Positions 4,164 to 50,887 of a stretch of 51,559 nt of DNA are shown piece by piece. The notes under the pieces were generated by a model, which saw only the letters and a program-made list of their open reading frames with translations, made no database searches and was not told where the DNA came from. Positions within the stretch are counted from its first letter, which is position 1. Every line of letters begins with the position of its first letter. The translations under genes were made by a program, and so were the position numbers. The stretch is from a virus: positions 1 through 51,559 of the IMG/VR virus record IMGVR_UViG_3300013102_000012. One strand, 5' to 3'.

Positions 4164-4183
4164 GGCTGGTCAAATTCTCCCTA

Positions 4184-4212
4184 TTGACGCGTCCGTCATT
4201 AGCCCGTAGACC
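4184..4212 (+). promoter_or_regulatory. Promoter P1 (plus) of the replication operon, with palindrome
   Basis: TTGACG at 4184-4189, a 17-bp spacer and TAGACC at 4207-4212. The palindrome seen at six other sites covers the -35 (ATTGAC-N6-GTCATT, 4183-4200, one arm base off). The first gene starts at 4245 with AAGGGAGA ahead of it. This promoter is interleaved with a minus-strand promoter at 4196-4224. Confidence 0.6.
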
Positions 4213-4224
4213 GACCGTCGTCAA
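4196..4224 (-). promoter_or_regulatory. Promoter (minus) of the methyltransferase-helicase operon
   Basis: On the minus strand TTGACG (4219-4224), a 17-bp spacer and TAATGA (4196-4201), with a leader of about 25 nt to the ATG at 4163. Its -10 lies inside the spacer of the plus promoter at 4184-4212, and the reverse holds too, so the two can hardly be occupied at the same time. Confidence 0.5.
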
Positions 4225-4244
4225 CACAAGGGAGACCCCTAAAA

Positions 4245-5078: not shown

Positions 5079-5167
5079 TTGACGACCGGGGGCGCGCGCA
5101 GTTTCGACATGCCGCGCTCAAACGACAGCACAATGCGCCCCGGGCGTAACCAAGGGAGACGACCAAG

Positions 5168-5764: not shown

Positions 5765-6912
5765 CCGCCCAGACCGAACACCACGCGCGCCTAGCGCCGT
5801 CGAGCGCCCATATCTGGCGGTATTGCCCCGGCTCGGTCGCAATGCAGGAACGCCAGCCGCCGGAAGACGAGACGGACGAAAGCCGCGAGGGGACCGCCGC
5901 GCATTGGCTGTTGGCCCGCACGATCCTGAAACTCGACACGCCGCCCGACGCGATCGCCGACAACGGCGTGCCCGTCAATCAGGAGATGCGCGACGCGATC
6001 GCCGAACTCGTCACCGACATCAACGACACGATCAAGGGATGCCAGCCGGGCGACTATTATCAGACCGAACAGCGGGTTTTTGCGCATACGATGATCCATC
6101 CCGATTGCGACGGAACGCCAGACAATTATTTCGTGCAGTTCTCGCGGAAGACGGCCCATATCTGGGACTTCAAGTACGGCCATCGGTACGTTGACGCCTA
6201 CCGGTGTTGGCAGCTGATCGCCTACGCGGCCGCGCTGATCGAAACCGCCAAAATCGCCGATTGGCGCGATTGGTCGTTCACGTTGACTATCGCCCAGCCG
6301 CGCAGCTTTTCGCGGGAAGGGGACGGCGGTACGCTGCGCGAATGGTTCGTCTCGGGTGCCGAGCTGGGTGGCTATATCGACGAGTTGCGCGCAGCAGCGG
6401 CCAAGGCGAGCGCGCCGGACGCCCCGTGCATCACCGGCGATTATTGCGGCGACTGCAAAGCCGCCTGGGACTGCATGGCCAATTTGCGCGCCGGGGGCTT
6501 CTCGGTCGACGTGATCCACGGCCAGCAAGGGACGAGCATGAACCCGGCGTCGATCGGCGTCGAAATGCGCGTGCTGCGTCAGGCTCTCGACCGGGCGAAC
6601 TCGCGGTTGAAGGTGCTGGAAACCAAGGCGATGCAGGCCATCGACACCGGCCAGACCGTGCCGTTCCACCGGCTCGAATGGACCAAACCGCGCTGGGTCT
6701 GGGATACGGCCAAGATCGCCGAGGCGGTCAGCGTCGTGCAGATGTTCGGTGTCGACGTGCTGCCCGGTGTGGCGCTGCCGACACCGAATGCGATCACCAA
6801 ACAGGGTGTTGACGGCTCCGTCATTACCCCGTACACGACCAAGGGCGCACCGGCCAAAAAGCTGGTGGCTTTCGAAGATGCGAACGTTTCGAAAATCCTC
6901 GGGCGTCGCTGA
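5761..6912 (+). CDS. DUF2800 / Cas4-RecB-like nuclease
   Basis: 383 residues from the ATG at 5761, which overlaps the previous stop; the open frame reaches further upstream but only over the preceding gene. It starts with the DUF2800 signature LAPSSAHIWRYCPGSV, then EGTAAHWLLA. WDFKYG near 135-140 supplies the Asp-x-Lys of a PD-(D/E)XK core. Four Cys near residues 223-236 (pattern C-x6-C-x2-C-x5-C) could bind an iron-sulfur cluster as in Cas4/AddB. Phages use such exonucleases in recombination and host DNA breakdown. Its neighbour is an ssDNA-binding protein, so the pair may make a recombination module. Confidence 0.85.
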   Translation: MTAQTEHHARLAPSSAHIWRYCPGSVAMQERQPPEDETDESREGTAAHWLLARTILKLDTPPDAIADNGVPVNQEMRDAIAELVTDINDTIKGCQPGDYYQTEQRVFAHTMIHPDCDGTPDNYFVQFSRKTAHIWDFKYGHRYVDAYRCWQLIAYAAALIETAKIADWRDWSFTLTIAQPRSFSREGDGGTLREWFVSGAELGGYIDELRAAAAKASAPDAPCITGDYCGDCKAAWDCMANLRAGGFSVDVIHGQQGTSMNPASIGVEMRVLRQALDRANSRLKVLETKAMQAIDTGQTVPFHRLEWTKPRWVWDTAKIAEAVSVVQMFGVDVLPGVALPTPNAITKQGVDGSVITPYTTKGAPAKKLVAFEDANVSKILGRR

Positions 6913-14998: not shown

Positions 14999-16164
14999 AC
15001 CAAGGTGACCGTGACCGTGCCAACGGCTGGAAATTGGTTGATGCCGACGCCGAGGCTGTTGACGCCGTTAATCGTGACGGTCAGCACACGCGCCCATGGC
15101 CCGAGTTGCGCAATCGGCGAAACGAACGACGACGCGTAGAGCGTCTGGCCAATCCGGGCGAGCGGGCCGAAGGCGGCGGTAACCGCGGCTTGGATCTGAG
15201 CAACCGCATCGCTCGGAACGTCTGGCTTGTTGGCAATGGAAATTGCGAAATTGGCAGCGAGCGACGCGGCGCGCTGGAACTTGACGGTATAGGTCGGCGG
15301 CGTGACGTACCCGGAGTTCGTATCCGCAACCGTCACGCTGGTCGAGCCGGTATACCCGCAACCAGGGGCTTTCTTGGTCCAGATGGCCCGTGCGACGTCG
15401 TCGTCAGTGCCGCCTTCGACGCAAACGTAAAGTGTGCGCGCGGCAATCGTCTGTGTCCCGATCGTGACGGCCGAGGCGGTCGCATTCTCGGTCACGTACG
15501 CGTCAGCAATGCCCGGCACGTTCAATACGGCGCCGCGGATGGCCGGCAGGATGCCGTTGGCGTTGATCGCGACGGACGCGGCGCGCCGTTCCTCAAATGC
15601 GTCCCGGCTTTCCTGATACTGGCCGATCGTGCCGTCCGTGGTGTTCGTGATGCTGTCCCAGCCGGGCACCGTCCGATAGATGCGGTTGAGCGAGCCGGCG
15701 GGGCACGCGATCGGCCCGGTCGTCAACGCTGCAAAAGGAATATCGACCGAACCGCTGGCCGGGATCGTTGCCGTCGAAAGGCTCTGATAGATCGTGCCGT
15801 CGCTGGCCTTGGCGAGCGAGCCCGCCGGGATGATGACGCCCGTCGCGCCAGATGCCGTGCCGGTAACGAGCGTCGGCGTCGCGGCGCGGCGCGTCAGGAA
15901 ATAAATCCGCGCGATTGCGTCTTGCATCCGGCCGGAGGCGTACGCCGGGTCGACTTGGTTGGTGAAGTCGACGAACAGGTCATTGAACGCGCCGATGACT
16001 GCCGCGAGGCTGGTCGCCAGCTGGCCCTGGGGCGTGCTGACGTTTGTGTTGAGCGCGCCGCCGAACGCGTCCGAGAAGTCGCGGGCTACCCCGGCCAGAA
16101 TGTCCAGTTCCTCGGGCGACGTGAAGCCGTCCGGGCCAAAGGACGGAAAGGGGACGTTCGTCAT
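14995..16164 (-). CDS. Baseplate J-like protein
   Basis: 389 residues from the ATG at 16164, which overlaps the stop of the gp25-like gene (ATGA). The longer frame extends upstream only over that gene. FTSPEELDILAGVARDFSDAFGG at the start (quoted in parts: FTSPEELD, ILAGVARDF) and the DLFVDFTNQVDPAYASG helix, RIYFLTRR, then beta-sandwich repeats with GAVLNVPGIADAYV, are typical of gpJ-type proteins that form the baseplate wedge of contractile tails. Confidence 0.9.
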   Translation of the reverse strand: MTNVPFPSFGPDGFTSPEELDILAGVARDFSDAFGGALNTNVSTPQGQLATSLAAVIGAFNDLFVDFTNQVDPAYASGRMQDAIARIYFLTRRAATPTLVTGTASGATGVIIPAGSLAKASDGTIYQSLSTATIPASGSVDIPFAALTTGPIACPAGSLNRIYRTVPGWDSITNTTDGTIGQYQESRDAFEERRAASVAINANGILPAIRGAVLNVPGIADAYVTENATASAVTIGTQTIAARTLYVCVEGGTDDDVARAIWTKKAPGCGYTGSTSVTVADTNSGYVTPPTYTVKFQRAASLAANFAISIANKPDVPSDAVAQIQAAVTAAFGPLARIGQTLYASSFVSPIAQLGPWARVLTVTINGVNSLGVGINQFPAVGTVTVTLV

Positions 16165-16511
16165 AGGGCGATCACCTGCGTTCCGTCGTTCGTCTTGATC
16201 TGGATTTGACCGGTTAGCACTCGGTTCGGCTGCGGCACAAGCACGGCTTTCGCGTCGATCACGCCGGGCACCGTCAGTGCGGCCTGTTGCGCGCGGGCGC
16301 GCAGAAGCTGGGTCGGCTGGTATCGGCCGAGCGCGTCCGTGAAGTACGGCACGCCAATGGTCGTGTCGTAATACGCTTCGCCTTGAAAGACCCGCACGGC
16401 GCTGGCCGCGTCCTGGGCTTGGCTGTACGGTTCGGACGCGATCGCCCAGTTGCCGGCGGCATCGACCGCCAAATCCCAACCGTCTCGATCCAAAAGCATT
16501 GTCGTAGCCAT
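16161..16511 (-). CDS. gp25/gpW-like baseplate wedge protein
   Basis: 116 residues. LDRDGWDLAVDAAGNWAIA at the start, then AQDAASAVRVFQGEAYYD, GVPYF and a C-terminal beta strand pair are characteristic of the small baseplate proteins of the gp25/gpW type. It precedes the gpJ-like gene as usual. The ATG stands 6 nt after an extended -10 (TGC-TAAGGT, 16518-16523), so its message may be leaderless. Confidence 0.8.
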   Translation of the reverse strand: MATTMLLDRDGWDLAVDAAGNWAIASEPYSQAQDAASAVRVFQGEAYYDTTIGVPYFTDALGRYQPTQLLRARAQQAALTVPGVIDAKAVLVPQPNRVLTGQIQIKTNDGTQVIAL

Positions 16512-16517
16512 AAGGCC

Positions 16518-16523
16518 ACCTTA
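16518..16523 (-). promoter_or_regulatory. Extended -10 of a probable leaderless promoter
   Basis: Minus-strand GTGC-TAAGGT followed by 6 nt and the ATG at 16511. The same GTGC-TAtsGT box stands at the same distance from the starts at 18285, 19596 and 21423. Here no good -35 is found at 17 bp; the repeated element is separated from it by extra bases compared with the other three copies. Confidence 0.4.
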
Positions 16524-16565
16524 GCACGGTCCAGCAGCGGCTCGCAATTTTGTTGACGTTGGGTA

Positions 16566-16594
16566 TTGACGGGACGGTCAATGACGGGCAGGTA
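16566..16594 (+). promoter_or_regulatory. Promoter P2 (plus) with palindrome
   Basis: TTGACG (16566-16571), 17-bp spacer, CAGGTA (16589-16594). The palindrome ATTGAC-N6-GTCAAT occupies 16565-16582. The methyltransferase ATG at 16601 lies 6 nt after the -10, so this message is probably leaderless. An upstream TTGACG direct copy sits 14 bp ahead. Confidence 0.65.
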
Positions 16595-16600
16595 AGGCAT

Positions 16601-17614
16601 ATGACCGCCTATTACAACGAATATGACCCGTTTGCGGCCGAATGGCTGGAGAACCTGATTTGGGCCGAGGCGATCGCGCCGGGGGTAGTTGATCGGCGGT
16701 CGATTGTCGACGTGACGCCGAATGATCTGGCAGGTTTCACGCAATGCCATTTCTTTGCAGGGATAGGGGTTTGGAGTTATGCGCTACGTTCAGCCGGATG
16801 GGCAGACGACCGACCCGTCTGGACCGCAAGCTGCCCTTGCCAACCTTTCAGCCAAGCAGGCCAAGGCGGCGGGTTTGATGACGAGCGGCACCTTTGGCCC
16901 GCCTTCTACCACCTCGCCAGCATCTGCGGCCCTCGCGTCGTCTTTGGCGAACAGGTTTCAAGTCCGGACGGCCTCGCTTGGCTCGACCTTGTTCAAACTG
17001 ACATGGAAGCAGCGGGCTATGCCTTCGGGGCGATGGATCTATGCGCTGCGGGCGTCGGTGCCCCGCACATCCGACAACGGTCGTTCTGGATGGCCCACGC
17101 CACTGGCCAAAATCGCAGGACCGGACTTTGCGATCAGCAACCGGCCAGGGTCGGGGTCGATGATGCTACCGGCGGTGGCAGCGCTCGCGTCGTGGGAGTC
17201 GCCCACGACGCGAGATTGGCGATCGGATCGTCATACCCGGACGAACGAGGAATTGTACGGGACGAAAGGAATGCCGCTGCCCGCCATGTCGTACCTAGCG
17301 AGCTGGCCGACGCCAATGGCGGGCAGCGCGGGAACCGACACTTACCGCCCGGCGGGCAACACGGACAGCAGCCGCAAAACAGTCGAGCTACTCAAACCAT
17401 CATTAGCCCAGCCCGCCCGACTGACGGTTTCTGGAGAGATGCTGATTGGCTCTACTGCCGGGATGGAAAGTGGCGGCCCGTTGAGCCCGAATCATTCCCG
17501 TTGGCTCATGGGATTGCCAACCGCGTGGGCTCTTTGCGCGGCTATGGTAACGCCATCGTCGCGCCGCTCACCGAAGAGTTCATCGGAGCCGCGCTAGACG
17601 TCCTAGACGGTTAA
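16601..17614 (+). CDS. DNA cytosine-5 methyltransferase
   Basis: 337 residues from the ATG at 16601; a longer frame begins at 16550 but inside the promoter. Motifs: [13 protein letters not shown] (motif I), [24 protein letters not shown] (motif IV with the catalytic Cys; quoted parts CPCQPFS and ERHLW), FGEQVSS (motif VI region with Glu), [14 protein letters not shown] (motif VIII), and a C-terminal GYGNAIV (motif X). It modifies phage DNA against restriction. It is the only gene of its plus-strand cassette in the baseplate region and its stop interlocks with that of the gpV-like gene (TTAA shared). A second long reading frame overlaps it in the +1 frame (16779-17597). Confidence 0.9.
16779..17597 (+). 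CDS. Overlapping-frame ORF inside the cytosine methyltransferase gene
   Basis: A 272-residue frame, +1 relative to the methyltransferase, beginning with an ATG that follows AGGGG by 9 nt. The product has protein-like features: [26 protein letters not shown], a [19 protein letters not shown] segment, ALRAS, WPTP repeated three times, [10 protein letters not shown] and SRWLMGLP. From memory, hypothetical proteins with this exact motif order recur in many phages and prophages, usually over such methyltransferases. That argues for an overprinted gene, although one frame could be translated only weakly. Function unknown. Confidence 0.5.
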
Positions 17615-18285
17615 ACCGGCGGTCCGCTCTGTCCGCCGCCGGGCTGCACGCCCGAATGCTTGTGTGTGTCGAAGTCCTTGCCGTTGAACGTCGAGCCGGC
17701 GCCGGTCGTCACCTTGCCGGTCACGGCCAGGTCGCCGCTCATACTGACCGTCGGCGCATCGATCGTCACGCCGCCGGGCGCGTTGATCGTCACGGGCAGG
17801 CCGGCAGCGGCGGTAATCGTCACGCCTTCGTCGTCCAGTCGCACGAACTGCGCGGGCGCGGCGTTCAGCAGGCCGCCCAGATAGATCCCGTCCGCCCAGT
17901 CGAACCGGCGCGCGCTGCCCGGGGTGGTCGGCTTGCGCGATCGTTTCACGCCGGAAATGTCCGAACTGCAGAACACCGCTAGGCCGATATCTCCGACCGC
18001 CGGCCGCACGATCACGCCAGACGTGCCGCCCTGTACACGCCAGACCGGCAAGCCGTGAATCGTGCCGTGTGGGACGGCGTTGCCCGCGCCGTCGACCTGG
18101 GCGACCATCGGTTGCACGTCGACCGCAAAGCCGGTCGACGTTTCGGTGACCGCTTTGACCTGAACCAGCGTGGTCGTTGCGGTCTTGTCGAGAATGGACC
18201 GCACGGCGAACGACAGCCGGTTCCATTCGCTGTTGACGTCCTGCAGGTTCGCCTGCCCGGTGTACGCTTGTTCGTTGGCGGCCAT
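17611..18285 (-). CDS. gpV-like baseplate spike protein
   Basis: 224 residues from the ATG at 18285. N-terminal helical/OB part with AVRSILDKTATTTLVQVKAV, IHGLPVWRVQGG and PAVGDIGLAVFCSSDIS is the Gp138/gpV N-terminal domain; the C-terminal half is a Gly/Val-rich beta-helix with VTINAPGGVTIDAPTV repeats and a final HKHSGVQPGGG tip, likely metal-binding. It forms the membrane-piercing tail spike. The ATG lies 6 nt after a TGC-TATGGT box, which makes an upstream start unlikely and suggests a leaderless message. Confidence 0.88.
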   Translation of the reverse strand: MAANEQAYTGQANLQDVNSEWNRLSFAVRSILDKTATTTLVQVKAVTETSTGFAVDVQPMVAQVDGAGNAVPHGTIHGLPVWRVQGGTSGVIVRPAVGDIGLAVFCSSDISGVKRSRKPTTPGSARRFDWADGIYLGGLLNAAPAQFVRLDDEGVTITAAAGLPVTINAPGGVTIDAPTVSMSGDLAVTGKVTTGAGSTFNGKDFDTHKHSGVQPGGGQSGPPV

Positions 18286-18291
18286 GGCCCG

Positions 18292-18320
18292 ACCATAGCA
18301 CGGGCAAAAAATGTTGACGA
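18292..18320 (-). promoter_or_regulatory. Minus-strand promoter of the gpV-like gene (leaderless)
   Basis: TCGTCA (18315-18320), 17-bp spacer, extended -10 TGC-TATGGT (18292-18297), then 6 nt to the ATG. It lies back to back with the plus promoter P3; the two -35 boxes are 6 bp apart. Confidence 0.5.
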
Positions 18321-18326
18321 TGGGTA

Positions 18327-18355
18327 TTGACGGTGCGGTCAATAGCCGTTAGGTA
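18327..18355 (+). promoter_or_regulatory. Promoter P3 (plus) with palindrome
   Basis: TTGACG (18327-18332), 17-bp spacer, TAGGTA (18350-18355). Perfect-arm palindrome ATTGACGGTGCGGTCAAT at 18326-18343, identical to that at 21464-21481. Drives two small genes starting at 18380. Confidence 0.75.
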
Positions 18356-18379
18356 GGGCGTAACAGAAGGAACCGACCG

Positions 18380-18556
18380 ATGAACACGTTCGCAACCCAG
18401 CAGACCGCCGAAACCATCCACCAAAACGCAGCCAACTGGACCGCCCTGCATACCATTAGCAACGAACAGGCTGACAAACTGATGGCAGAATATAAGGCGG
18501 AAAAGCGCCTTAGGGCGATCCGCCGATACCTGAAGGAACGGGCAGCACGAGGATAG
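18380..18556 (+). CDS. Small helical hypothetical protein (58 residues)
   Basis: 58 residues from the ATG at 18380, with AGAAGGAA 9 nt ahead. The product is one long amphipathic helix pair with a basic C-terminus (YKAEKRLRAIRRYLKERAAR). No family recognised. It is the first gene of the cassette under promoter P3; the next gene starts 6 bp after its stop. Confidence 0.65.
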   Translation: MNTFATQQTAETIHQNAANWTALHTISNEQADKLMAEYKAEKRLRAIRRYLKERAARG

Positions 18557-18562
18557 TACTCA

Positions 18563-18706
18563 ATGGGCAAGTCAGGCTACACCCGAATTTTCCATAGCGA
18601 CGGCACCGAACTCCCCAAAGGCTGGTATTATCGGCCTTACGGGGGTGGTGCGTTTGGGCCATTCTCTACCGAACGCAAAGCGCGCAAAGCGGCGGGGATT
18701 ACCTAA
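18563..18706 (+). CDS. Small Gly/Tyr-rich hypothetical protein (47 residues)
   Basis: 47 residues; GWYYRPYGGGAFGPFST followed by a basic helix (ERKARKAAG) resembles a small nucleic-acid-interacting phage protein with the pattern of DUF-type WY..R....G.FGPF domains. Its TAA shares CTAA with the stop of the convergent hub gene. Function unknown. Confidence 0.6.
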   Translation: MGKSGYTRIFHSDGTELPKGWYYRPYGGGAFGPFSTERKARKAAGIT

Positions 18707-19596
18707 CTCGGCGTCCCGATGATCGGTGCGGCCTGCCCGAGCAACCCGCACTCGACGCGCGTGAACCACTGGCCGCCGGGCAGCTCGGCGTCTAGGTTAT
18801 GCTGCACGGCCGCCACGGTCCACGACCCGTTCGCTGCGGCAAGCGGGCTCGTCACTTCAAGGCGCTGGCCGAATGTCAGCGACGGTGTGAAAAGCGTTGT
18901 CAGAGCGATTCCGTTCTGGGTGAACTGGGGATAGCCGACCAAGCCGGTGGCCGGCGATAGGTTGAGCGTCAAGCCCTCCCGCGTCGAGCCGAGCGGCCAG
19001 ATCGCCAACACCTGTTCGTCGATCAGCATATTGCAGCGTGCCGCCCGGGCGACGGCTAGAGCCTGATCGCGCAGCGTGCCCGGCAAGTACGGACTGTCCA
19101 GTGTTACCTGCACGCCGTTGTTCTCAAGCGATCGCGGGGGCACCATCTGGGCGGCGATGCTGGACATCAGCACGTCGACCGCCACCGGGCCGTTATAGCT
19201 GGTCGGCGCGACCGGCCGGATCGCGTCCAGGCCGCCGGAGAACGCCGACAGGGTGAACGCGACGTCGGGTGGGTTGCTGGCGTCTGCCCACGCTTCCTTG
19301 ATCGTGCCGGTAAAGACGACGCCCATGCCCGACTCGTCGTCGCCAGCCGTGACCGTCACGCTGTTCGAGCGCTCTTGCGCGTAGGCCAACTTGTTCAGCA
19401 CGGTCAGTCGTTGCATCACGTCGAGCGGCATTCCCAGCACGCGCAGTTCCAGCTGAGACATCGACGCGCCGCCGGCCTTGGTGATCGTGCAGGACGTGCG
19501 CAGCCCCTTGACCGTCACGGTATCGGATCCGTCCGCGCCGAACGCACCTTCGCCGAGCGCAAAGGTCAGTTCAATCTTGCGGGTCGTAAAGGCCAT
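18703..19596 (-). CDS. Baseplate hub protein
   Basis: 297 residues from the ATG at 19596. Segments such as KIELTFALGEG, GLRTSCTITKAGG, SQLELRVLGMPLDVMQRLTVL, VVFTGTIKEAWAD and the later beta-rich part with AVQHNLDAELPGG follow the phage hub (gpD/gp27-like) pattern found just downstream of the Dit-like and plug genes. The ATG lies 7 nt after TATCGT (19604-19609); a longer start at 19605 would lie inside that box and is rejected. Confidence 0.8.
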   Translation of the reverse strand: MAFTTRKIELTFALGEGAFGADGSDTVTVKGLRTSCTITKAGGASMSQLELRVLGMPLDVMQRLTVLNKLAYAQERSNSVTVTAGDDESGMGVVFTGTIKEAWADASNPPDVAFTLSAFSGGLDAIRPVAPTSYNGPVAVDVLMSSIAAQMVPPRSLENNGVQVTLDSPYLPGTLRDQALAVARAARCNMLIDEQVLAIWPLGSTREGLTLNLSPATGLVGYPQFTQNGIALTTLFTPSLTFGQRLEVTSPLAAANGSWTVAAVQHNLDAELPGGQWFTRVECGLLGQAAPIIGTPS

Positions 19597-19603
19597 GTCC
19601 GGC

Positions 19604-19632
19604 ACGATAGCACGGCCAAAATTTATTGACGA
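19604..19632 (-). promoter_or_regulatory. Minus-strand promoter of the hub gene (leaderless)
   Basis: TCGTCA (19627-19632), 17-bp spacer, TGC-TATCGT (19604-19609), then 7 nt to the ATG at 19596. Same arrangement as upstream of the gpV-like and Dit-like genes. Confidence 0.5.
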
Positions 19633-19638
19633 TGGGTA

Positions 19639-19667
19639 TTGACGGCACGGTCAATAGACGTTAGGTA
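19639..19667 (+). promoter_or_regulatory. Promoter P4 (plus) with palindrome
   Basis: TTGACG (19639-19644), 17-bp spacer, TAGGTA (19662-19667), palindrome ATTGACGGCACGGTCAAT at 19638-19655. Drives the two genes at 19695 and 19925. Confidence 0.72.
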
Positions 19668-19694
19668 GGATGCAACAGCAAGGGAGATACCACG

Positions 19695-19928
19695 ATGATC
19701 ACCGCAACCGAAACTAGCACCGGCACCGCCTTCGAAACCGTCGCCCGTGGCGTCTCCTATTACCTTCGCCGTAACGTACTCGGCCGGTGGGAGCTTTCGA
19801 GCCGCCGGCTGGCCATGAGCACGTTCGGGCAGGTTCGCCACTTCGAATCGCTGGCCGAGGTCGAAGCCAAGGTTAAAGCGTTCGCGGGCCTGTCGGCGCT
19901 CACCGAATCGCTTCCGGTAGCGGCATGA
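19695..19928 (+). CDS. Small hypothetical protein (77 residues)
   Basis: 77 residues; a beta-hairpin-like N-terminal part (GVSYYLRRNVLGRWELSSRRL) followed by a helix (SLAEVEAKVKAFAGLSALTE). This looks like a small compact phage-encoded protein of unknown role. A ribosome site (CAAGGGAGA) is 8 nt ahead. Its stop overlaps the next start (ATGA). Confidence 0.65.
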   Translation: MITATETSTGTAFETVARGVSYYLRRNVLGRWELSSRRLAMSTFGQVRHFESLAEVEAKVKAFAGLSALTESLPVAA

Positions 19929-20164
19929 GCGGGGAGACGTTCAACCCCCGTTGGCTGGCCTATTGTCGAGCCAACGGGCGCGACAGCGGGTCGCAACTCG
20001 CCCATGATCGGGAGGAGTGGAAGGGCGGCGCCATGTGCGGGTTCATCCTGTGGTGTCGTGAGCAGTTGCCGATTTTCAGCAAGGCAAACCCCGGCGCGTT
20101 CAGGCTCGGAACCCTCGTCGACCATGCCGCCTATGACGCGTGGCTAGGCGCTCGGTACCCCTAA
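19925..20164 (+). CDS. Small hypothetical protein (79 residues)
   Basis: 79 residues: FNPRWLAYCRANGR, a charged middle, MCGFILWCREQLPIF and DHAAYDAWLGARY. Two Trp/Cys-rich helices; no membrane segment. No family recognised. Its TAA abuts the stop of the convergent baseplate plug gene (TAATTA), leaving no terminator between the opposed genes. Confidence 0.62.
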   Translation: MSGETFNPRWLAYCRANGRDSGSQLAHDREEWKGGAMCGFILWCREQLPIFSKANPGAFRLGTLVDHAAYDAWLGARYP

Positions 20165-20464
20165 TTACGCCGCGTCATCCCAGACCAACAGGAACCGCCC
20201 GCCCAGGCCGTCGTAAGCCGGGTCGGCGGTTCCTTGCGTGTCGACGAAGAACAGGTCGCCCGCAAAGCCCCGATACGAACCGCGCACCAGCTTGACACGG
20301 TCGAGCGCTTTGACGCCGAGTATGACCGGCCGGTCTTGTTCGTAAATGTCCACGAACAGCCCGGTTCGACGCTGGCGGACGACGATCCGGCACGACTGGT
20401 CGCCCAACTGTACGGACAGACGTTGCGACGGCGTCGCGATCAGCGGCACGACGAATACGGTCAA
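20165..20464 (-). CDS. Baseplate plug protein (DUF6983-like)
   Basis: 99 residues from the TTG at 20464, which overlaps the stop of the Dit-like gene (TTGA). The longer open frame upstream is only that gene in another frame. QRLSVQLGDQSCRIVVRQRRTGLFVDIY and the C-terminal GDLFFVDTQGTADPAYDGLGGRFLLVW (quoted in parts: GDLFFVDTQG, YDGLGGRFLLVW) follow the DUF6983 baseplate plug pattern, a small protein capping the tail tube at the hub. Confidence 0.75.
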   Translation of the reverse strand: MTVFVVPLIATPSQRLSVQLGDQSCRIVVRQRRTGLFVDIYEQDRPVILGVKALDRVKLVRGSYRGFAGDLFFVDTQGTADPAYDGLGGRFLLVWDDAA

Positions 20465-21423
20465 CGGCCCGCCCCCTGGTATTGCTGCGCGGCGGGCGGT
20501 TGGCTTGTCTGTACGCTGCCGTCGTTCACTTGGCCCGAGCCGGTCGCTTCCTTGGTCTGGGTAAATTGCAGCGTGGCAGTCTGACGCACCTTGCGCAACG
20601 TTACCTCGAGCGCCATCAGCCCGACGCCGCGATCGGCAACGACCGTACGCCGCACGCCCGTCACGTTCACGTCGAGATAGACGCATTCCGGCGTGATCAC
20701 GCTGTAGAGCGTCGTCGCAAGCCATGCGTCTTGGATGGCCTTGAGGAAATCTTGCCGGTCCTCGACCGAACCGCCCTTAGTCATCACTAGCCGGATTTCG
20801 TACGGCGTGATCACCTTGTTGTACGAGCCGAACCCGACGGTCTCGGTCGGCGTGTCGGTGTTGTTGGGCGCGACCGGATAATCCGAAATGCGCGCCTCAA
20901 GGCTGTTCTCGAACGCAGTGATATTGTCCGCCTCGACGGCAAGATCGCCGTCCTGCGTGTACAGCCCCCACTGCAGGACCGTGTCGGCGTTCACTTCCTC
21001 GCCGGACGAGTCGAGCACGGGCGGTTGCGTCGGATTGACGAGCGCGGTCAGCGTTTCGCGCGCGCTCTGGGCCTGATCGAGCGCTAGGACGGCGTTGGCC
21101 CGCGCGCCGGCCAGATCACCGGACGCCAGCGCGGTCAGGCCGTTCGACGCGTTCGCTACTGCGCCGGACAACCCGCCGATCACGTTCGACCCATCCGGGA
21201 AGATATCGGCCGCCAGCCCGAGCGCGCCGCTGGCCGACGAGCCGGTCAGCGTGAAGCCGTCCGAGGCGCCCGGTAGGTCATTCGCGTCGAGCGCGCCGAT
21301 CGTGTCGAACGCGCTGGTCTCCGCATCGGTCGAGCCGCGCAGGATGGACGCCAGTTGCGGCCCGGCACGCGCTACCGGCGGCACGCCCGGCACGTCGGGC
21401 ACGTTGGGGAAAAGCGCGCTCAT
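20461..21423 (-). CDS. Dit-like distal tail/baseplate protein
   Basis: 320 residues from the ATG at 21423. A long N-terminal Ala/Gly-rich region (1-130) with PQLASILRG, DTIGALDAND and LDQAQSARETLTALV is followed by a beta-rich domain with SYNKVITPYEIRLVMTKGG, AIQDAWLATTLYSVITPE, VNVTGVRRTVVADRGVGL and MALEVTLRKVRQ, the signature of the Dit-like N-terminal domain. The ATG lies 6 nt after TATGGT (21430-21435), a likely leaderless promoter. Confidence 0.8.
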   Translation of the reverse strand: MSALFPNVPDVPGVPPVARAGPQLASILRGSTDAETSAFDTIGALDANDLPGASDGFTLTGSSASGALGLAADIFPDGSNVIGGLSGAVANASNGLTALASGDLAGARANAVLALDQAQSARETLTALVNPTQPPVLDSSGEEVNADTVLQWGLYTQDGDLAVEADNITAFENSLEARISDYPVAPNNTDTPTETVGFGSYNKVITPYEIRLVMTKGGSVEDRQDFLKAIQDAWLATTLYSVITPECVYLDVNVTGVRRTVVADRGVGLMALEVTLRKVRQTATLQFTQTKEATGSGQVNDGSVQTSQPPAAQQYQGAGR

Positions 21424-21429
21424 AGGGCG

Positions 21430-21458
21430 ACCATAGCACGGGCGAAAAATGTTGACGA
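21430..21458 (-). promoter_or_regulatory. Minus-strand promoter of the Dit-like gene (leaderless)
   Basis: TCGTCA (21453-21458), 17-bp spacer, TGC-TATGGT (21430-21435), then 6 nt to the ATG at 21423. Sequence almost identical to the copy at 18292-18320. Confidence 0.5.
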
Positions 21459-21464
21459 TGGGTA

Positions 21465-21493
21465 TTGACGGTGCGGTCAATAGGCGTTAGGTA
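21465..21493 (+). promoter_or_regulatory. Promoter P5 (plus) with palindrome
   Basis: TTGACG (21465-21470), 17-bp spacer, TAGGTA (21488-21493), palindrome ATTGACGGTGCGGTCAAT at 21464-21481. Drives three small genes, 21520 to 22339. Confidence 0.75.
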
Positions 21494-21519
21494 GGGTGCA
21501 CAGCAAGGGAAATACGAAC

Positions 21520-21705
21520 ATGGAAAAAGACTGGAATCCCATCGCGTCCGCACCGGAAAATCGAGTCGTCTGGACGAAAATCGATGATGCGGACGGTGTT
21601 CGGAACGAAGCTACTTTGAAACGTTCTGGCCGTCTCTGGTTCACGCCGGATGGCGCAATGTACGTCTATTATACTCCGACGCATTGGGCCGAGGTGACGG
21701 AATGA
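21520..21705 (+). CDS. DUF551-like small protein
   Basis: 61 residues from the ATG at 21520 (AAGGGA ahead); an ATG at 21496 is too close to the -10. EKDWNPIASAPENRVVWTKIDD, a middle strand pair, and a final YTPTHWAEV match the DUF551 layout (W-x-P start, aromatic THW end) common in phages. Its role is unknown. The stop overlaps the next start (ATGA). Confidence 0.7.
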   Translation: MEKDWNPIASAPENRVVWTKIDDADGVRNEATLKRSGRLWFTPDGAMYVYYTPTHWAEVTE

Positions 21706-21941
21706 AAGGTTATCGCATCTACGCAGCGACCGGCGCCCTGATCGGCGAGACGTGCCTTAACCTGATCGCCCGCGCGATCGTTCGGGCCGCCCAGTCGGCG
21801 CCGGCCGAATACAAGCTCGGCGAGATTGGCGTATGGCTCGACGGCCAGCCGGTCGACATTTCCGACTGGGGCGAGCCGGCCGCTTCTGCTGCGCGTATCG
21901 ACTGGGGCAATCATGCCACGGTCATTCCCGAAGGAATTTGA
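21702..21941 (+). CDS. Small hypothetical protein (79 residues)
   Basis: 79 residues from the ATG at 21702. GYRIYAATGALIGETCLNLIARAIVRAAQ and GVWLDGQPVDISDW suggest a beta-hairpin, a helix and a second hairpin. No family recognised. Sits in the P5 cassette between two small genes with 4-bp overlap on the left and 2-bp spacing on the right. Confidence 0.6.
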   Translation: MKGYRIYAATGALIGETCLNLIARAIVRAAQSAPAEYKLGEIGVWLDGQPVDISDWGEPAASAARIDWGNHATVIPEGI

Positions 21942-21943
21942 CG

Positions 21944-22339
21944 ATGACCGACTATACCGACGCATGGACCGAATGGGAGAACCTATTTCGGCGTCGCAAC
22001 ACTAACCCGGAGAACGTCGCTGCAGAATTTCTCCGCGACCGCGGGTATATTGTCGAACGCCCGGACACGCTTTCGTTGCCGGTACAGGTCGCCCGAAGCG
22101 GCAGTTGGACCGCCGCGGACGGGTATCGAATCAAACTTCACACCCGTGTCACTATCGGCGACCGTCAATTGCAAACTGATATTTCGATCGAGGTCACCAA
22201 CGCAGGATGGCCCGCCGCCGCATTCTCCAGCCAAACCGCGAACGCGCTATCACGGGCGATTCTTCGCGAAATCGAGCCTCAAATCGAAATGGGGATGGCG
22301 CACGAATTGGCCAAGGCGAAAGCCGAGAGCCGCGATTAA
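21944..22339 (+). CDS. Hypothetical protein (131 residues)
   Basis: 131 residues. DAWTEWENLFRRR helix, AEFLRDRGYIVERPD, a beta-rich core (YRIKLHTRVTIGDRQLQTDISIEV) and a C-terminal helix (QTANALSRAILREIEPQIEMGM). No known family; the helix-core-helix layout resembles small phage proteins that fold as dimers. Its stop interlocks with that of the tape measure gene (TTAA). Confidence 0.6.
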   Translation: MTDYTDAWTEWENLFRRRNTNPENVAAEFLRDRGYIVERPDTLSLPVQVARSGSWTAADGYRIKLHTRVTIGDRQLQTDISIEVTNAGWPAAAFSSQTANALSRAILREIEPQIEMGMAHELAKAKAESRD

Positions 22340-24087
22340 GGCTGCAAGCCCGTGTTGGCCTGCACGACCAGCCCGCGCTTCGCGAGCGCCCCGCGCATAT
22401 CGTGCGCAATGCCCTCGGCGTCCGTGGCGGCCGTATAGACGATGATCTGCCCGACGCTGGTCGTTTGGGTCGTCGTGCTGGTCGAGCCGCCGCCCGTCGC
22501 GCCGCGCGCCGCCATCCTGCCGGGCCGGACCGCGCCGACCGCTTCGCCCAGGATACCGCCTGCGCGCGCATAGTCGCCGCCCGCTCCGTCCCCCGGCCGA
22601 TAGAACTTGTCGATCATGGCGCGGGCGGCCTGACCGGATGTGCGGGCGCGGGTAATGTCGATGGTACCGAGTGTGGCGCCACGATCGCCCCCGCGCATTT
22701 CGGAGTACATGAAATCCAGCTGTTGCTGCAGGGTCGGGTGGGGCCCGTATTTGGCGAACAGCGCGCGCTGGCGCGCACCGAGCCATTGGCCGATGCCGTA
22801 CGCGCCGCTCGTCGGATTACGTACGTTCGCGCCAAGCGTGTCGTTCTCGGACCGCATCGCCGCGACCATGCCGCGCGCCTGGACGGCGGAAAACCCCTTG
22901 CTCTCCCAATACGCGCGGGCTTGCTGTTCGGCGCTGCGCGTGTCGCGCGAAGGCGGCGGGGGCGGGGCCGCCGAGCCACCGGCCTGCGGATGCTCTCGGC
23001 GGTAACGGTCGAGGATCTCTTGCCGCGGGCTCTTGCTGCCCGTCACATCGGTTCCGTCGGCACGCGCGTCCGCGCCGATCTTGAAACCGAACAGACGCCG
23101 CACCGGGTCAAAGATCGGATCGGTCGATTCGCCGACGCCCTTCCAAAACGTATCGAGCCGGTCGTACGCGGCTTTAAGGTCGTCCAGATGCGTGACGACG
23201 AGCGCGATCGCCCCGGCCAGCGCTGTGAACGGCCAGAACGCCGCGGCGGCTGCGACACCGATCGCGATGACGAGCCCGCCGCCGACCTTCAACACGGTGT
23301 TGAGATTGTCGCCCTTGTCGAGCCAATCGGCCAGCGCAGTAACGACCGTCTCGACCGCCGGGCGCAACTTGTTGGTCAGCCCGGTTTCGAGCATCGCCAT
23401 CTTCTCTTGGAAACGGGCCGCTGCCTGGGCGCTCTCGTCGGTCGCCACGCCCAGCTTGCGCTGTTCCTCGAGCATCCGCGTCACTGCGGTGCGGCCCTTG
23501 GCCAACAGGTTGATCGTGTTTTCGTCGAACCCTAGGCGCGACAGGCGGGCGTTGAACTCTTGCCGGTTCATCCGACCGGACGCCTCGGAAATCTTGAGCA
23601 GCGTTTGCGTCGGGTCCTGCAGATCCTTGGCGGTGACGCCGAGGCCCTGAAAGTCCGCGTCCTTGCCGGTTGTGCCGGTCAGCTGGAGCGACTGGAACGC
23701 AGAGGACAGGCCGCGCAGCACGCCGTCGATATCCCCGGCCTGCCCGCCGACACGCTTGATCGCGCCTTCCCAGGCGGACAGTTCTTCCGTCGCGACGCCG
23801 AGGTTCTTCGCCAGCCGCCCGGTCGCGGCATCCCCGGCCAGTATGTTCGACGCGAAATCCTTGATCCCGTTGGCGCCGGCCAGCATGAACAGAAAACCGG
23901 CCGTCTCGTTGCGCAGGGATCGAAGCCCCTGGACCATGCGCTTCTGCGAATCTTCCGTATTGCGGTTTCGCTTGGTCTCGTCCGCGTCGAGCCGCTTTAA
24001 ATCCTCGTCGAGTTTCTTCCGCTCTTTCTGGTAGTCGCGCGGGTCGAGACCCAAGGTGACGACAAAAGCGTCAATGATATCCGCCAT
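22336..24087 (-). CDS. Tail tape measure protein with tail lysozyme domain
   Basis: 583 residues. N-terminal coiled coil (about 15-65), hydrophobic segments near 260-300 (VGGGLVIAIGVAAAAAFWPF), a Pro-rich linker near 370, then a lysozyme-like domain from about 395: YWESKGFSAVQARGMVAAM, SENDTLGANVRN, SGAYGIGQWLGARQRALF. This domain follows the phage tail lysozyme pattern with catalytic Glu in SEND. The protein sets tail length and opens the cell wall during DNA entry. The ATG overlaps the stop of the tail-chaperone frameshift frame (TAATG). Confidence 0.9.
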   Translation of the reverse strand: MADIIDAFVVTLGLDPRDYQKERKKLDEDLKRLDADETKRNRNTEDSQKRMVQGLRSLRNETAGFLFMLAGANGIKDFASNILAGDAATGRLAKNLGVATEELSAWEGAIKRVGGQAGDIDGVLRGLSSAFQSLQLTGTTGKDADFQGLGVTAKDLQDPTQTLLKISEASGRMNRQEFNARLSRLGFDENTINLLAKGRTAVTRMLEEQRKLGVATDESAQAAARFQEKMAMLETGLTNKLRPAVETVVTALADWLDKGDNLNTVLKVGGGLVIAIGVAAAAAFWPFTALAGAIALVVTHLDDLKAAYDRLDTFWKGVGESTDPIFDPVRRLFGFKIGADARADGTDVTGSKSPRQEILDRYRREHPQAGGSAAPPPPPSRDTRSAEQQARAYWESKGFSAVQARGMVAAMRSENDTLGANVRNPTSGAYGIGQWLGARQRALFAKYGPHPTLQQQLDFMYSEMRGGDRGATLGTIDITRARTSGQAARAMIDKFYRPGDGAGGDYARAGGILGEAVGAVRPGRMAARGATGGGSTSTTTQTTSVGQIIVYTAATDAEGIAHDMRGALAKRGLVVQANTGLQP

Positions 24088-24337
24088 TACGCGCCCTCTT
24101 GAGCCGCGCGGGCTGCCCGCGCCAACGCTTCGTTATACGCGTCGACGTCCGCGATTTCCAGCAAGTCGTAAGCGTCCTCGAGCCCGTACACAGTTTGCAG
24201 TTCGTGCAACGTGGCGAGCTTGGCGCTGACGACGTTGCCGATCAGCTGGGGGACGTTTGCGTATCCGACGAATCCGACGTCGCTTGCGCCTGGACCGCCG
24301 CGCCCAGTTTCGACAGGTACGCGGCGACCGAAAAACC
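24087..24337 (-). CDS. Tail assembly chaperone, -1 frameshift extension (GT-like)
   Basis: A frame without its own ATG, -1 relative to the chaperone gene, open to the TAA at 24087. Its last part is clearly protein-like: SAKLATLHELQTVYGLEDAYDLL and EIADVDAYNEALARAA. A GGGTTTT heptamer in the right phase lies at 24332-24338; a second candidate, TCC CCC AGC next to the zero-frame stop (24248-24253), allows slippage on CCC. As in lambda gpG-gpT, a fusion product is expected in small amounts and would help fold the tape measure protein encoded next. Confidence 0.65.
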
Positions 24338-24733
24338 CGTGTGGAGTTCGACGACCTCCCCGCGCAACTTCACGAGCGTCGAGATTTCTTCGATATCTTC
24401 GTCGTCGAGCGGCCGCGTGACGTCCTGCCGGGTGCGGTCAGGCAGCAATTCGACGCACGACATCATTTCGTCAAGTAGCGGCTCGGCGTCGACGAACGAC
24501 GTGGTGAGCAGCGCACGAAAGCCGACGGCGACCATGGCACCCATACCTGCGCGCATCACTTCGGGCGAGATATCGACGCCGCTGTCCGCGATCGCCAGAA
24601 GCGCGCGCGTCGCCCACTTCTCGGCGCGGACAGCGGACATTTCGGTGATCTTGAAGGCCTTGCCGGCGTCGCGGTTCGGTCGGTCCTTGTCGTCACTGGT
24701 TGGGATGACGACGAGCTTGGTTTTGCGGGCCAT
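24242..24733 (-). CDS. Tail assembly chaperone (gpG-like)
   Basis: 163 residues. GKAFKITEMSAVRAEKWATRALLA, GMGAMVAVGFRALL, PLLDEMMSCV and RLDDEDIEEI-like segments follow the tail chaperone pattern found between tube and tape measure genes. The frame ends at a TGA at 24242. A -1 shifted frame continues to 24087 (separate entry). AAGGGAGA precedes the ATG. Confidence 0.82.
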   Translation of the reverse strand: MARKTKLVVIPTSDDKDRPNRDAGKAFKITEMSAVRAEKWATRALLAIADSGVDISPEVMRAGMGAMVAVGFRALLTTSFVDAEPLLDEMMSCVELLPDRTRQDVTRPLDDEDIEEISTLVKLRGEVVELHTGFSVAAYLSKLGAAVQAQATSDSSDTQTSPS

Positions 24734-24755
24734 AAATCTCCCTTGGGCCTATTGG

Positions 24756-25196
24756 TTAAGCGGGTCCGGCCGTGACGTCCTGCCACGTAATGGAGAACTG
24801 GCGCGGCTGGATCGTGCGGCGCAGCGACGGCATCACGGACGACGCGGTCTTGAAGCCACGGGTCATGGTGTATCGCTTGCTGGTCGCCTTGATCAGCAAC
24901 GAACCGAACGCGATGTACGTTTCGCGCCGCTGGCGCTCGGCCTGCGTCCAGTTCTCGAAAAAGTCGATGCTCTCGCTGTCCGCCTGCAACATGATGTTCT
25001 GCACGACGGCGTTGAACACCCAGCCGGCCGACAGGCGGCCGTCGATACCGAAACTCGTCTCGGCGGTCGTCAGCGCGTCGGTGTTCGACAGGTCGTCGGC
25101 GGAAAAGCCCTGGATGCGGCGCGGCGTGTCGTACAAGCCGACGACGCCCAGCATCAGGATAGCGTTTGCCGAGGTGATCGTACGGTTGTTCGCCAT
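24756..25196 (-). CDS. Tail tube protein (DUF3277-like)
   Basis: 146 residues. ITSANAILMLGVVGLYDTPRRIQGFSADD, IDGRLSAGWVFNAVVQNIMLQADS and DFFENWTQAE match the DUF3277 tube proteins of contractile-tailed phages. It directly follows the sheath gene, its start overlapping the sheath stop (TAATG). It forms the inner tube of the tail. Confidence 0.85.
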   Translation of the reverse strand: MANNRTITSANAILMLGVVGLYDTPRRIQGFSADDLSNTDALTTAETSFGIDGRLSAGWVFNAVVQNIMLQADSESIDFFENWTQAERQRRETYIAFGSLLIKATSKRYTMTRGFKTASSVMPSLRRTIQPRQFSITWQDVTAGPA

Positions 25197-26680
25197 TACT
25201 GCACCTGCAGGCTGGAGAGAGTGATTTTCTGCACCGACTGGCCGTCGGTATAGAAGAACGTGGCCGTCGGCGAGCCGCGGACCGCGCGCACGGTGCCGCC
25301 CGGATCCACGACGGAAAGATACCAGCCGCGGGCGAACAGCACGTCGGAGATATCGAGCCCGGCCAGCTGGTTGACCTGCGTCTTCTGGGCATCGGTCAGC
25401 GTCACGCCGGACCGGATCGCACCGAAAGATACGGCCGCGTCAATATCGGTCTGAACGCCCGAGCCGATCATTTCATAGCCGTCGTCGTTGTACGGGATCT
25501 GGCCGAGGTTGGTCAGAAGCGACATCAGCGAGACTTGGAAGCGGTTGTTCAGCCAAATCTGGTTGATATAGCTGTCGATCCACTTGAAATCGCCCGACAC
25601 GCTGCCCGGATACAGGAACGTGAACTGATCGTTGGCCGTCGCGTACGAACCATAGAAGTTGTAGCCGTTCGCGATCAGGTTCGCCGCGATCGTCTGGTTC
25701 GTGACGTCCGCCGCCAGTCCCGACTGGCTACGGAAAGCACCGTTCGCACGGCCATTCGTCCGGTTGAAGTCGATCGACGCGACGTATCCCAGGACGAACA
25801 CCGCCTTGTCGGCGGCGGGCGCCCACACGATGGCCGTCCCGGAAAGGTTGGCGTTCTTGATCAGCGCGGCCGGTGACGTCGTGTCGGTATTGGTGGTGCC
25901 CGCGACGATGTTGGTCCACGGCACGTACAGGAAGCGATTGCCGCGGCCGTTCGTCCACGTCGCAAACGCGACGATATCGTCCGACGCCGCTTGGAACAGC
26001 GTCGTGAACGTCACGAAATCCTGCGTTTGGCCGATGACACCCGCCATGGCGGTTCCGGGGGTATCGACCGCGGCGCCTTGCGACAGGACGGCACCGGCCG
26101 CCGCAGTCAGGCCCAGGCCGCTGGCAAGCGAGCCGCTGGCGACCGTGATGGTCGACGTCGCGCCGGTCGCGTTGGTCGTGAAGGTGAAGGCGCCCGCGAC
26201 GCTGTCATACGTCACGGTAAAGGCCGGCGTCGTGAAAGCGGCCTGAATGAGCGTTGCGGCGTTCGAGAAGCTGGTAGCGCTCGAAAGGTTGATGGTGCTG
26301 GAAGTGGTCGACGTGCCGTTGACAGTCAGGGTCAGCGTGCCGGTGAGGGCCTGCAACTGCGTCAGGGTCAGACCGAGCGAGGCCCCGCGCAGCCATGCCG
26401 CACGCGCCGTCGACGCGTAGGCGGCGAAAAGCAGGAACGCCGGTTTGACGAACGAATTGTCATAGCCGAGGAAATAAATCACGGCCTTGGCGTACTCGTC
26501 GGACGTCGGACCGAAATAGGCCGAGACGGCATCAGCGCTCGTGAACCGCAGGATCGTGCCGTACGGCGCGCGCGTGCTGTTCGTCAGGATCAGACCGGCC
26601 ATATCCAGACCGGTGCCGCCGGAACCGATAACGCCAGGAATGACGTTGACGATTTCCGAGGCTGGGATACTCGCAACCAT
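25196..26680 (-). CDS. Tail sheath protein (DUF3383)
   Basis: 494 residues from the ATG at 26680; the longer frame only runs over the previous gene. VASIPASEIVNVIPGVIG, LILTNSTRAPYGTILRFTS, VSAYFGPTSDEYAKAVIYF, a TLTVNGTSTT beta domain, and late segments GYNFYGSYATANDQFTFLYPG and WLNNRFQVSLM are hallmarks of the DUF3383 family, the contractile sheath of this phage group. Preceded by the tail terminator, followed by the tube gene. Confidence 0.92.
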   Translation of the reverse strand: MVASIPASEIVNVIPGVIGSGGTGLDMAGLILTNSTRAPYGTILRFTSADAVSAYFGPTSDEYAKAVIYFLGYDNSFVKPAFLLFAAYASTARAAWLRGASLGLTLTQLQALTGTLTLTVNGTSTTSSTINLSSATSFSNAATLIQAAFTTPAFTVTYDSVAGAFTFTTNATGATSTITVASGSLASGLGLTAAAGAVLSQGAAVDTPGTAMAGVIGQTQDFVTFTTLFQAASDDIVAFATWTNGRGNRFLYVPWTNIVAGTTNTDTTSPAALIKNANLSGTAIVWAPAADKAVFVLGYVASIDFNRTNGRANGAFRSQSGLAADVTNQTIAANLIANGYNFYGSYATANDQFTFLYPGSVSGDFKWIDSYINQIWLNNRFQVSLMSLLTNLGQIPYNDDGYEMIGSGVQTDIDAAVSFGAIRSGVTLTDAQKTQVNQLAGLDISDVLFARGWYLSVVDPGGTVRAVRGSPTATFFYTDGQSVQKITLSSLQVQ

Positions 26681-44798: not shown

Positions 44799-44803
44799 CG
44801 TGG

Positions 44804-50884: not shown

Positions 50885-50887
50885 CGC

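Follow-up and report, generated by a model that had tools for sequence, protein, structure and literature searches.

A repeated palindrome-headed block at four antisense cassettes in a phage tail operon, and its likely role as a two-sided control element

How can accessory genes stand backwards inside a packed structural operon while late expression is kept? This question is raised by a phage genome (IMG/VR record IMGVR_UViG_3300013102_000012) whose whole stretch of 51,559 nt, here called the window, was analysed. A sequence-only reading of the locus had described four plus-strand cassettes amid minus-strand tail and baseplate genes, and the ORFs match that description. Based on comparisons of sequence, we consider it likely that the block at the head of each cassette is a two-sided control element around one operator, with a TetR-like protein as its likely reader. 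The genes concerned are as follows.

16161–16511, minus strand: gp25-like baseplate wedge gene (PHROG 120)
16601–17614, plus strand: cassette 1, a C5 cytosine DNA methyltransferase of 337 aa (PHROG 363, E 1.7e-82; Pfam PF00145, E 6.8e-10)
17611–18285, minus strand: gpV-like gene (PHROG 20516, unknown function), a conserved syntenic partner in relatives
18380–18706, plus strand: cassette 2, two ORFans of 58 and 47 aa, no confident family
18703–19596, minus strand: baseplate hub gene (PHROG 196)
19695–20164, plus strand: cassette 3, two ORFans of 77 and 79 aa
20165–20461: Pam3 gp18-like plug gene, after the PHROG-1830 gene
20461–21423, minus strand: PHROG-1830 tail protein ("Dit-like")
21520–22339, plus strand: cassette 4, three ORFans of 61, 79 and 131 aa
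22336–24087, minus strand: tape measure protein (PHROG 9570)

The ORFans of cassettes 2 to 4 have no confident match in PHROGs, Pfam, PADLOC or NCBIfam, and no integrase was found among the window genes searched in PHROGs and Pfam, which are part of all ORFs. Each cassette runs at its 3′ end into, or right up to, the stop codon of the late gene upstream, with 4 bp shared where the two overlap; the sequence-only reading had not mentioned this.

The head block and its palindrome

As the sequence-only reading had claimed, a repeated block stands at the head of every cassette, in four copies that are not due to chance. Three of these are 75–91% alike across 81 nt. The copy at the methyltransferase keeps only a 51-nt core (73–80% alike) and has 12–13 additional bases separating the palindrome from the late ATG. 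A search of IMG/VR for the exact block pattern gave no match. The palindrome itself, TTGAC-N6-GTCAA, occurs seven times in the window, where 0.04 copies are expected and none of 100 shuffles reaches seven:

1673–1688: palindrome, with candidate promoter TTGACG-17-TATGGC for a minus-strand gene (1181–1630) downstream of the helicase
16566–16581: TTGACGGGACGGTCAA, putative −35 of the cassette 1 promoter; candidate −10 CAGGTA at 16589–16594, 6 nt from the ATG
18327–18342: TTGACGGTGCGGTCAA, putative −35 of the cassette 2 promoter; candidate −10 TAGGTA at 18350–18355
19639–19654: TTGACGGCACGGTCAA, putative −35 of the cassette 3 promoter; candidate −10 TAGGTA at 19662–19667
21465–21480: TTGACGGTGCGGTCAA, putative −35 of the cassette 4 promoter; candidate −10 TAGGTA at 21488–21493
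40624–40639: palindrome, with candidate promoter TTGACG-17-TAATCT for a minus-strand small membrane-protein gene (40320–40583)
50869–50884: palindrome, 53 nt before the GTG of a TetR-like gene and, on the plus strand, 3 nt ahead of the endolysin ATG

Because three of the seven copies stand elsewhere (1673, 40624, 50869), before non-cassette genes and the TetR-like gene, the palindrome is not cassette-specific, and we rejected the earlier view of it as a mark of cassette promoters alone. A terminator or stoperator role was also rejected, the sites being symmetric and in promoter register. Promoter-like sequence lies in register at all four cassettes; a consensus scan called none of the eight block promoters, whose candidate −10s are far from consensus. 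Most palindrome promoters in relatives are followed by a Shine-Dalgarno (SD) sequence and an ATG. The palindrome may vary (TTGAC-N6-GTCAT in relative G015, TAGCGC-N4-GCGCTA in PY6), with the layout kept. About 48 nt separate the centre of the operator from the late start, which lies downstream.

The TetR-like gene points to a possible reader.

50468–50815, minus strand: short TetR-like HTH regulator of 115 aa with a GTG start, the proposed reader of the palindrome

This protein matches Pfam TetR_N (PF00440) with E 3.6e-5 and 23.9 bits, just under the cut-off of 24. Its AF2 model has a pLDDT of 86, and the 50 best Foldseek matches in the PDB are mostly TetR-family entries, although the best E is weak (0.042). 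At 115 aa versus about 170–207 aa for the matched chains, it does not have a full-length C-terminal ligand/dimer domain. The palindrome lies near the phage's own TetR-like gene in the window, in most relatives, and in the phages JD001, MSW-3 and Scuro. It is exact and directly upstream in the window, G003, G005, G006 and G014, directly upstream with one mismatch in G007, and one gene upstream in G013 (exact) and G015 (one mismatch); in G010 it is exact and directly upstream, and the TetR-like gene is divergent. Nearly all of the large relatives that bear the palindrome have a homologue, encoded by the first or second gene behind a palindrome promoter. The one large relative that has no homologue, G011 (43 kb), also has no palindrome, even when one mismatch is allowed. 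These observations suggest that the palindrome is probably a genome-wide operator, overlapping the −35 and spacer of sigma70-like promoters and read by a probable TetR-type regulator.

On the cassette side, the palindrome would serve as the −35 of a sigma70-like promoter and fill most of its spacer, so that binding of a protein there would turn the cassette off. That protein would likely be the phage's own short TetR-like regulator, and its gene, lying behind the same operator, would be autoregulated. Since the operator at the cassettes also precedes the TetR-like gene, the cassettes read best as accessory members of a TetR/early regulon that stand backwards among the late genes, and not as independent morons.

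The same arrangement of regulator and site is also seen in a separate cultured lineage. JD001 (Klebsiella), CP-T1 (Vibrio) and MSW-3 (Edwardsiella) encode a homologous short TetR-like protein (the match between the window and JD001 proteins is weak, 31% over 86%, E 9e-3) and contain 7, 6 and 5 exact palindromes, respectively, versus 0.03–0.05 expected in each. Among the annotated cases examined, the palindrome heads 4 of 5 antisense late-operon cassettes in JD001 and 4 of 4 in both CP-T1 and MSW-3; in JD001 and MSW-3 it is also found at the phage's own TetR gene. These phages differ from the window in the place of the late start. Their late ATG is mostly 1–10 nt from the palindrome, or inside it, and there is mostly no separate late promoter, whereas in the window block a separate, apparently leaderless promoter lies about 41 nt from the palindrome.

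The late side, and gain and loss of cassettes

The other half of the block faces the next late gene. The sequence TGCTANNGT followed by N5..8-ATG occurs exactly four times on both strands of the window, versus 0.07 expected, and all four sites belong to late genes beside blocks, with a spacing of N6 or N7:

16518–16526, minus strand: late-side element TGCTAAGGT, 6 nt before the gp25-like ATG
18292–18300, minus strand: late-side element TGCTATGGT, 6 nt before the gpV-like ATG
19604–19612, minus strand: late-side element TGCTATCGT, 7 nt before the hub ATG
21430–21438, minus strand: late-side element TGCTATGGT, 6 nt before the PHROG-1830 ("Dit-like") ATG

Of 24 distinct late starts beside a block, 19 have TANNNT at −12/−13 and 5 lack it there; among 80 late starts of other kinds, 3 have it. 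The Fisher value for this contrast, 5e-14, was computed on 20 of 25, with one row listed twice, and it overstates independence, as the rows come from related phages. SD pairing is weaker at block-adjacent late starts (−2.4 versus −4.7 kcal/mol; p 3e-6, with the same overstatement). The position of TANNNT relative to the ATG is kept in the 19 genes despite diverging surroundings, and no −35 is conserved. A −10 element 6–8 nt before the start codon, with no SD leader, is the predicted form of a leaderless promoter, and TGCTANNGT with N6/7-ATG is apparently such a late promoter, extended −10-like in character. The block had been described as firing both ways. It is indeed two-sided, with the palindrome and cassette promoter on one side and the late-gene element on the other; that both promoters would fire is what we infer from their sequences.

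It had also been argued that the late gene next to a cassette would otherwise be cut off from its operon. This does not follow, because there is no terminator signal above chance and read-through is possible: the terminator scan found 7 candidates versus 11.3 in shuffles, and the convergent 3′ ends overlap or abut. An insertion does surely disrupt the overlap of start and stop codons between late genes; the late side resembles a leaderless start, by which this break would be mended. With its extended −10-like element 6–7 nt before the ATG, it would give a leaderless transcript, and the late gene would gain its own transcription and translation start once insertion has broken the coupling overlap.

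Comparison of genomes bears out the claim of modular cassettes. Relatives L052 and L053 share 94% DNA identity in the hub and 90% in gpV, and differ at the hub/gpV junction by 485 bp, namely a cassette plus its block. This junction is a 4-bp overlap in L052, L009, L010 and L011; the window has 417 bp at this point, and L053 485 bp. In L009 and L010 the cassette 2 junction is thus empty, its flanks overlapping by 4 bp, and in L009 that of cassette 3 is almost empty. Thus cassettes are present or absent between close relatives with intact flanks (L052 versus L053, L009 versus the window), and the late genes that flank empty sites are intact and often overlap (ATGA). Methyltransferase homologues stand at the cassette 1 junction in L010, L012, L014 and L015 as well. 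A search of genome contigs with the hub found no relatives. The pairing of block and cassette is not strict, however. At the TMP/Dit junction, L015 keeps the palindrome and the late side, the cassette having been lost together with its −10, and antisense inserts with no block occur in L056 (ch/TMP), JD001 (gp09), phiAO1 (catalase) and others. The sequence-only reading had named such cases in advance as counting against it, and in part they do.

Alternative explanations and known systems

The block might do more than repress. A TetR-like protein bound at the palindrome may repress the cassette promoter and also activate the leaderless late promoter, making the block an early-to-late toggle. We regard this as a tentative proposal. 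In 19 of 24 block genes, the palindrome begins between −55 and −58 relative to the late ATG even though the intervening bases diverge, no −35 can be recognised in the late promoter, and bidirectional blocks typically have a GTCAATACC-type flank beside the palindrome; the remains at the L015 junction also fit. There is precedent in phage phi29, where p4 (with p6) governs the early/late switch at A2c-A2b-A3 in this way, from sites that overlie early −35s and at a late promoter whose −35 is poor (PMC3100819). LuxR of Vibrio harveyi, a TetR-type protein, is described as both activator and repressor (PMC2628434). Against the proposal, the spacing is longer by 5 to 13 nt in window gp25, L017, L052/L053 and L054 gp25, not in helical phase in every case, and activation from −48 is not general because the palindromes of MSW-3, CP-T1 and JD001 mostly adjoin the late ATG. 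Alternatively, the late-side element could be a remnant, TGCTANNGT having been carried along with the operator, with late genes expressed by read-through from upstream. The lack of terminators in the scan, the overlapping or abutting convergent stop codons, and the cultured phages that mostly do without a separate late promoter are all in line with this reading. We nevertheless judge it unlikely, given that the place of TANNNT is kept in 19 of 24 block genes and nearly absent at other late starts, and that SD pairing is weaker where the block adjoins.

Phage morons are small accessory genes that lie between structural genes and have their own promoter. The cassettes could be ordinary morons, acquired independently and expressed constitutively, with a common block only through recent duplication or recombination. 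They are compact, mostly ORFans and variable in presence, and they resemble morons in being small accessory genes, in standing between structural genes and in having a candidate promoter of their own. Yet the same palindrome precedes non-cassette genes and the TetR gene and heads unrelated cassettes in distant cultured phages, the block copies are paired with different genes, and no terminators were found by the scan, which together make this account improbable. The term moron, applied by the sequence-only reading, does not hold in its usual sense, as the scan gave the cassettes no terminator of their own; they also differ in sharing a probable phage operator, in lying on the opposite strand and in supplying the following gene with an apparent late promoter. 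Even less probable is that the repeats serve mainly as recombination targets for cassette shuffling, with regulation secondary. Recombination between 17-bp palindromes has been proposed for Cluster O mycobacteriophages (PMC4351075), and the gpV/gp25 junction is a shared insertion hot spot. But there is one palindrome per cassette rather than a flanking pair, promoter register is kept, and phiAO1 has palindrome-free antisense inserts at this same hot spot; a role solely as recombination hot spot was rejected.

In the preferred reading of a two-sided element around one operator, the sequences themselves show the repeated palindrome, its place before TetR genes, a late-side element specific to block genes, and block and cassette gained or lost together; binding by the TetR-like protein, the sign of its regulation, early timing and the leaderless start are inferred from them. 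This reading has partial parallels. As with phi29 p4, a predicted regulator site overlaps an early −35, here supplied by the palindrome, and lies beside an opposite-strand late promoter of poor −35; unlike in phi29, the element is repeated at several cassette junctions, the protein is TetR-like, and late-side activation is hypothetical. Cluster O mycobacteriophages have more than 30 17-bp dyad repeats, often inside genes and with no named regulator, predicted leaderless promoters, and, within the structural operon, a leftward gene that has a leaderless promoter to itself, PL2 (PMC4351075). The many dimer-type palindromes, predicted leaderless promoters and reversed gene are features in common, but the Cluster O repeats have no link to backwards cassettes. 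Stoperators of Cluster A resemble our sites as candidate repressor sites scattered over a phage genome; stoperators are asymmetric and terminate transcription (PMC9283540, PMC4351075), whereas the window sites are palindromic and lie in promoters instead of being oriented with transcription. The Start Associated Sequences of Cluster K, also tied to gene starts and often with inverted repeats, contain the ribosome-binding site (PMC3203893), unlike the late starts here, which have weak SD pairing and a −10-like element.

It is conceivable, though speculative, that a short TetR-like protein and its palindrome form an undescribed and widespread system of lytic myophages, a portable early/late toggle at late-operon junctions that would keep backwards cassettes off and turn the next late gene on through a leaderless promoter. 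We found nothing on TetR/palindrome control in these phages in the open-access literature searched, where the role of the TetR-like gene is undescribed; our analysis names a candidate regulator and site for about 100 sequenced phages. It offers a testable mechanism by which lytic phages may add accessory genes inside packed structural operons with late expression kept, and the operator would be a simple route to early accessory genes, possibly anti-defence and many of them ORFans. That cultured phages of Klebsiella, Vibrio and Edwardsiella share the arrangement makes the proposed early/late control testable. Their TetR-like protein is annotated as TetR in JD001 and CP-T1, and as hypothetical in MSW-3.

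The palindrome and its putative regulator

An ORF check of the window bore out all the coding claims of the sequence-only reading. The blocks heading the four antisense cassettes share a 51-nt core, 73–91% identical between copies. Central to each block is the palindrome TTGAC-N6-GTCAA, which has seven exact copies in 51.6 kb, versus 0.04 expected:

Heads of the four cassettes: one exact palindrome each
1673: exact palindrome
40624: exact palindrome
50869: exact palindrome

At every site, one arm supplies a −35 element (TTGACN), with a −10-like hexamer 17 nt on, ahead of a gene; some hexamers depart strongly from the consensus (e.g., CAGGTA, TAGGTA). The methyltransferase cassette looks leaderless on its own side (16589–16601), with a candidate −10 located 6 nt ahead of the ATG, as do the cassette starts at gp25 in two relatives' loci, L012 and L015.

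The palindrome at 50869 lies upstream of a gene for a 115-aa TetR_N-like protein. An AF2 model of this protein has a pLDDT of 86, and its PDB matches are mostly TetR-family chains, aligned via the HTH part with weak E-values. Homologues are found in related genomes G003, G005, G006, G007, G013, G014 and G015, and a more divergent one in G010. The palindrome lies directly 5′ of the TetR-like gene in the window, G003, G005, G006, G014 and G010 (exact) and in G007 (one mismatch); in G013 (exact) and G015 (one mismatch), it precedes a small gene that itself precedes the TetR gene. In G011, neither TetR nor palindrome was found. All five G015 palindromes found at one mismatch (L065 record) differ in an outer base, mostly reading TTGAC-N6-GTCAT, and the TetR-like protein of G015 ranks with the most divergent, which fits a joint change of site and protein. 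In the window (50869–51406), the palindrome also lies 3 nt upstream of the ATG of a plus-strand endolysin gene, the TetR-like gene being on the minus strand; in G005 (L033/L043), a lysozyme-like gene likewise starts immediately next to the palindrome and runs divergently from the TetR-like gene. Other features of the window are:

892–1194: small HTH protein, weakly similar to GcrA/HTH_23 and also a candidate regulator; located downstream of the palindrome at 1673
3441–4163: N6/N4-type DNA methyltransferase with a weak CcrM-like match, the second in the window and encoded away from the late operon
44801–44874, minus strand: lone tRNA-Gln (TTG) gene

Insertion sites and the late-facing side of the block

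Window proteins were mapped onto 15 loci (45–80% identity) obtained from hub searches of IMG/VR. The gpV/gp25 junction emerges as a hot spot for insertion; inserts were also seen at TMP/Dit, chaperone/TMP, hub/gpV and plug/hub and ahead of sheath. Where there is no insert, neighboring genes overlap by 4 bp or almost abut. L052 and L053 have hubs 94% and gpVs 90% identical, but their hub/gpV junctions are, respectively, a 4-bp overlap and 485 bp of cassette plus block. Antisense inserts usually carry the palindrome block at their head, and two sense inserts (the L012 zinc-finger ORF and the L017 HNH) have none. Exceptions are L056, with an antisense ORF lacking the palindrome at chaperone/TMP, and L057, where the hub/gpV palindrome is close to the start and the late element is missing. 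At TMP/Dit, L015 has a block without a cassette, in which the palindrome and late side are kept and the cassette −10 is lost.

In the window, TGCTANNGT lies 6–7 nt upstream of the ATG solely at the four block-adjacent late genes (0.07 expected); TANNNT at this position is absent from the other listed late starts, some of which are uncertain. Across window and relatives, TANNNT at −12/−13 is seen in 19 of 24 block-adjacent late starts, counting once the L053 hub that was entered twice among the 25 rows, versus 3 of 80 other late starts; since the rows come from related phages, p-values for these late-side counts are upper estimates of the evidence. For 19 of these 24 starts, the palindrome begins between −55 and −58, and SD pairing is weaker at block-adjacent starts than at other late starts (median −2.4 versus −4.7 kcal/mol). 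From its position, we read the late-facing side as a predicted leaderless late promoter.

A proposed mechanism and its precedents

The best-supported mechanism, judged from sequence, is one in which the TetR-like protein would bind the palindromes and repress its own gene as well as the promoters of the cassettes, and the late side of the block would restore expression of the next late gene. In a stronger form, the same bound protein may also activate the late promoter, by analogy to p4 of phi29 (PMC3100819). The fixed spacing between palindrome and late start fits such activation, as does the cassette-less L015 block. Every part of the block system has a known counterpart: Cluster O phages carry repeated palindromes and leaderless promoters (PMC4351075), stoperators form site arrays, and phi29 provides two-sided switches. 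For their combination with portable antisense cassettes, and for its presence in well-sequenced cultured phages, we found no account in the open-access papers searched.

Cultured phages

Exact palindromes number seven in Klebsiella phage JD001 (NC_020204), six in Vibrio phage CP-T1 and five in Edwardsiella phage MSW-3 (0.03–0.05 expected each). Among the annotated antisense late-operon cassettes examined, a palindrome with at most one mismatch heads 4/5, 4/4 and 4/4, respectively. JD001, whose TetR matches the window protein at 31%, has a palindrome at its own TetR gene, as do MSW-3 and Scuro; CP-T1 has a degenerate copy. The late ATG in JD001, CP-T1 and MSW-3 is mostly 1–10 nt from the palindrome or inside it, implying that a separate leaderless promoter is a trait of the window's family.

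In phiAO1 (L076), antisense sulfurtransferase, peroxiredoxin, SOD and catalase genes lie among the late genes (3792–6495 and 23390–25513), the catalase gene at the gpV/gp25 hot spot. Neither an exact palindrome nor a TetR match was found in this phage, so the hot spot predates the block or extends more widely than it does. PY6 (L082) uses TAGCGC-N4-GCGCTA, a different palindrome, and its antisense cassette is headed by one copy; here the layout is retained and the operator changed. Copies of this palindrome lie in promoter-like sequences:

7108: TAGCGC-N4-GCGCTA
8015: same palindrome
12383: same palindrome
19993: same palindrome
28189: same palindrome
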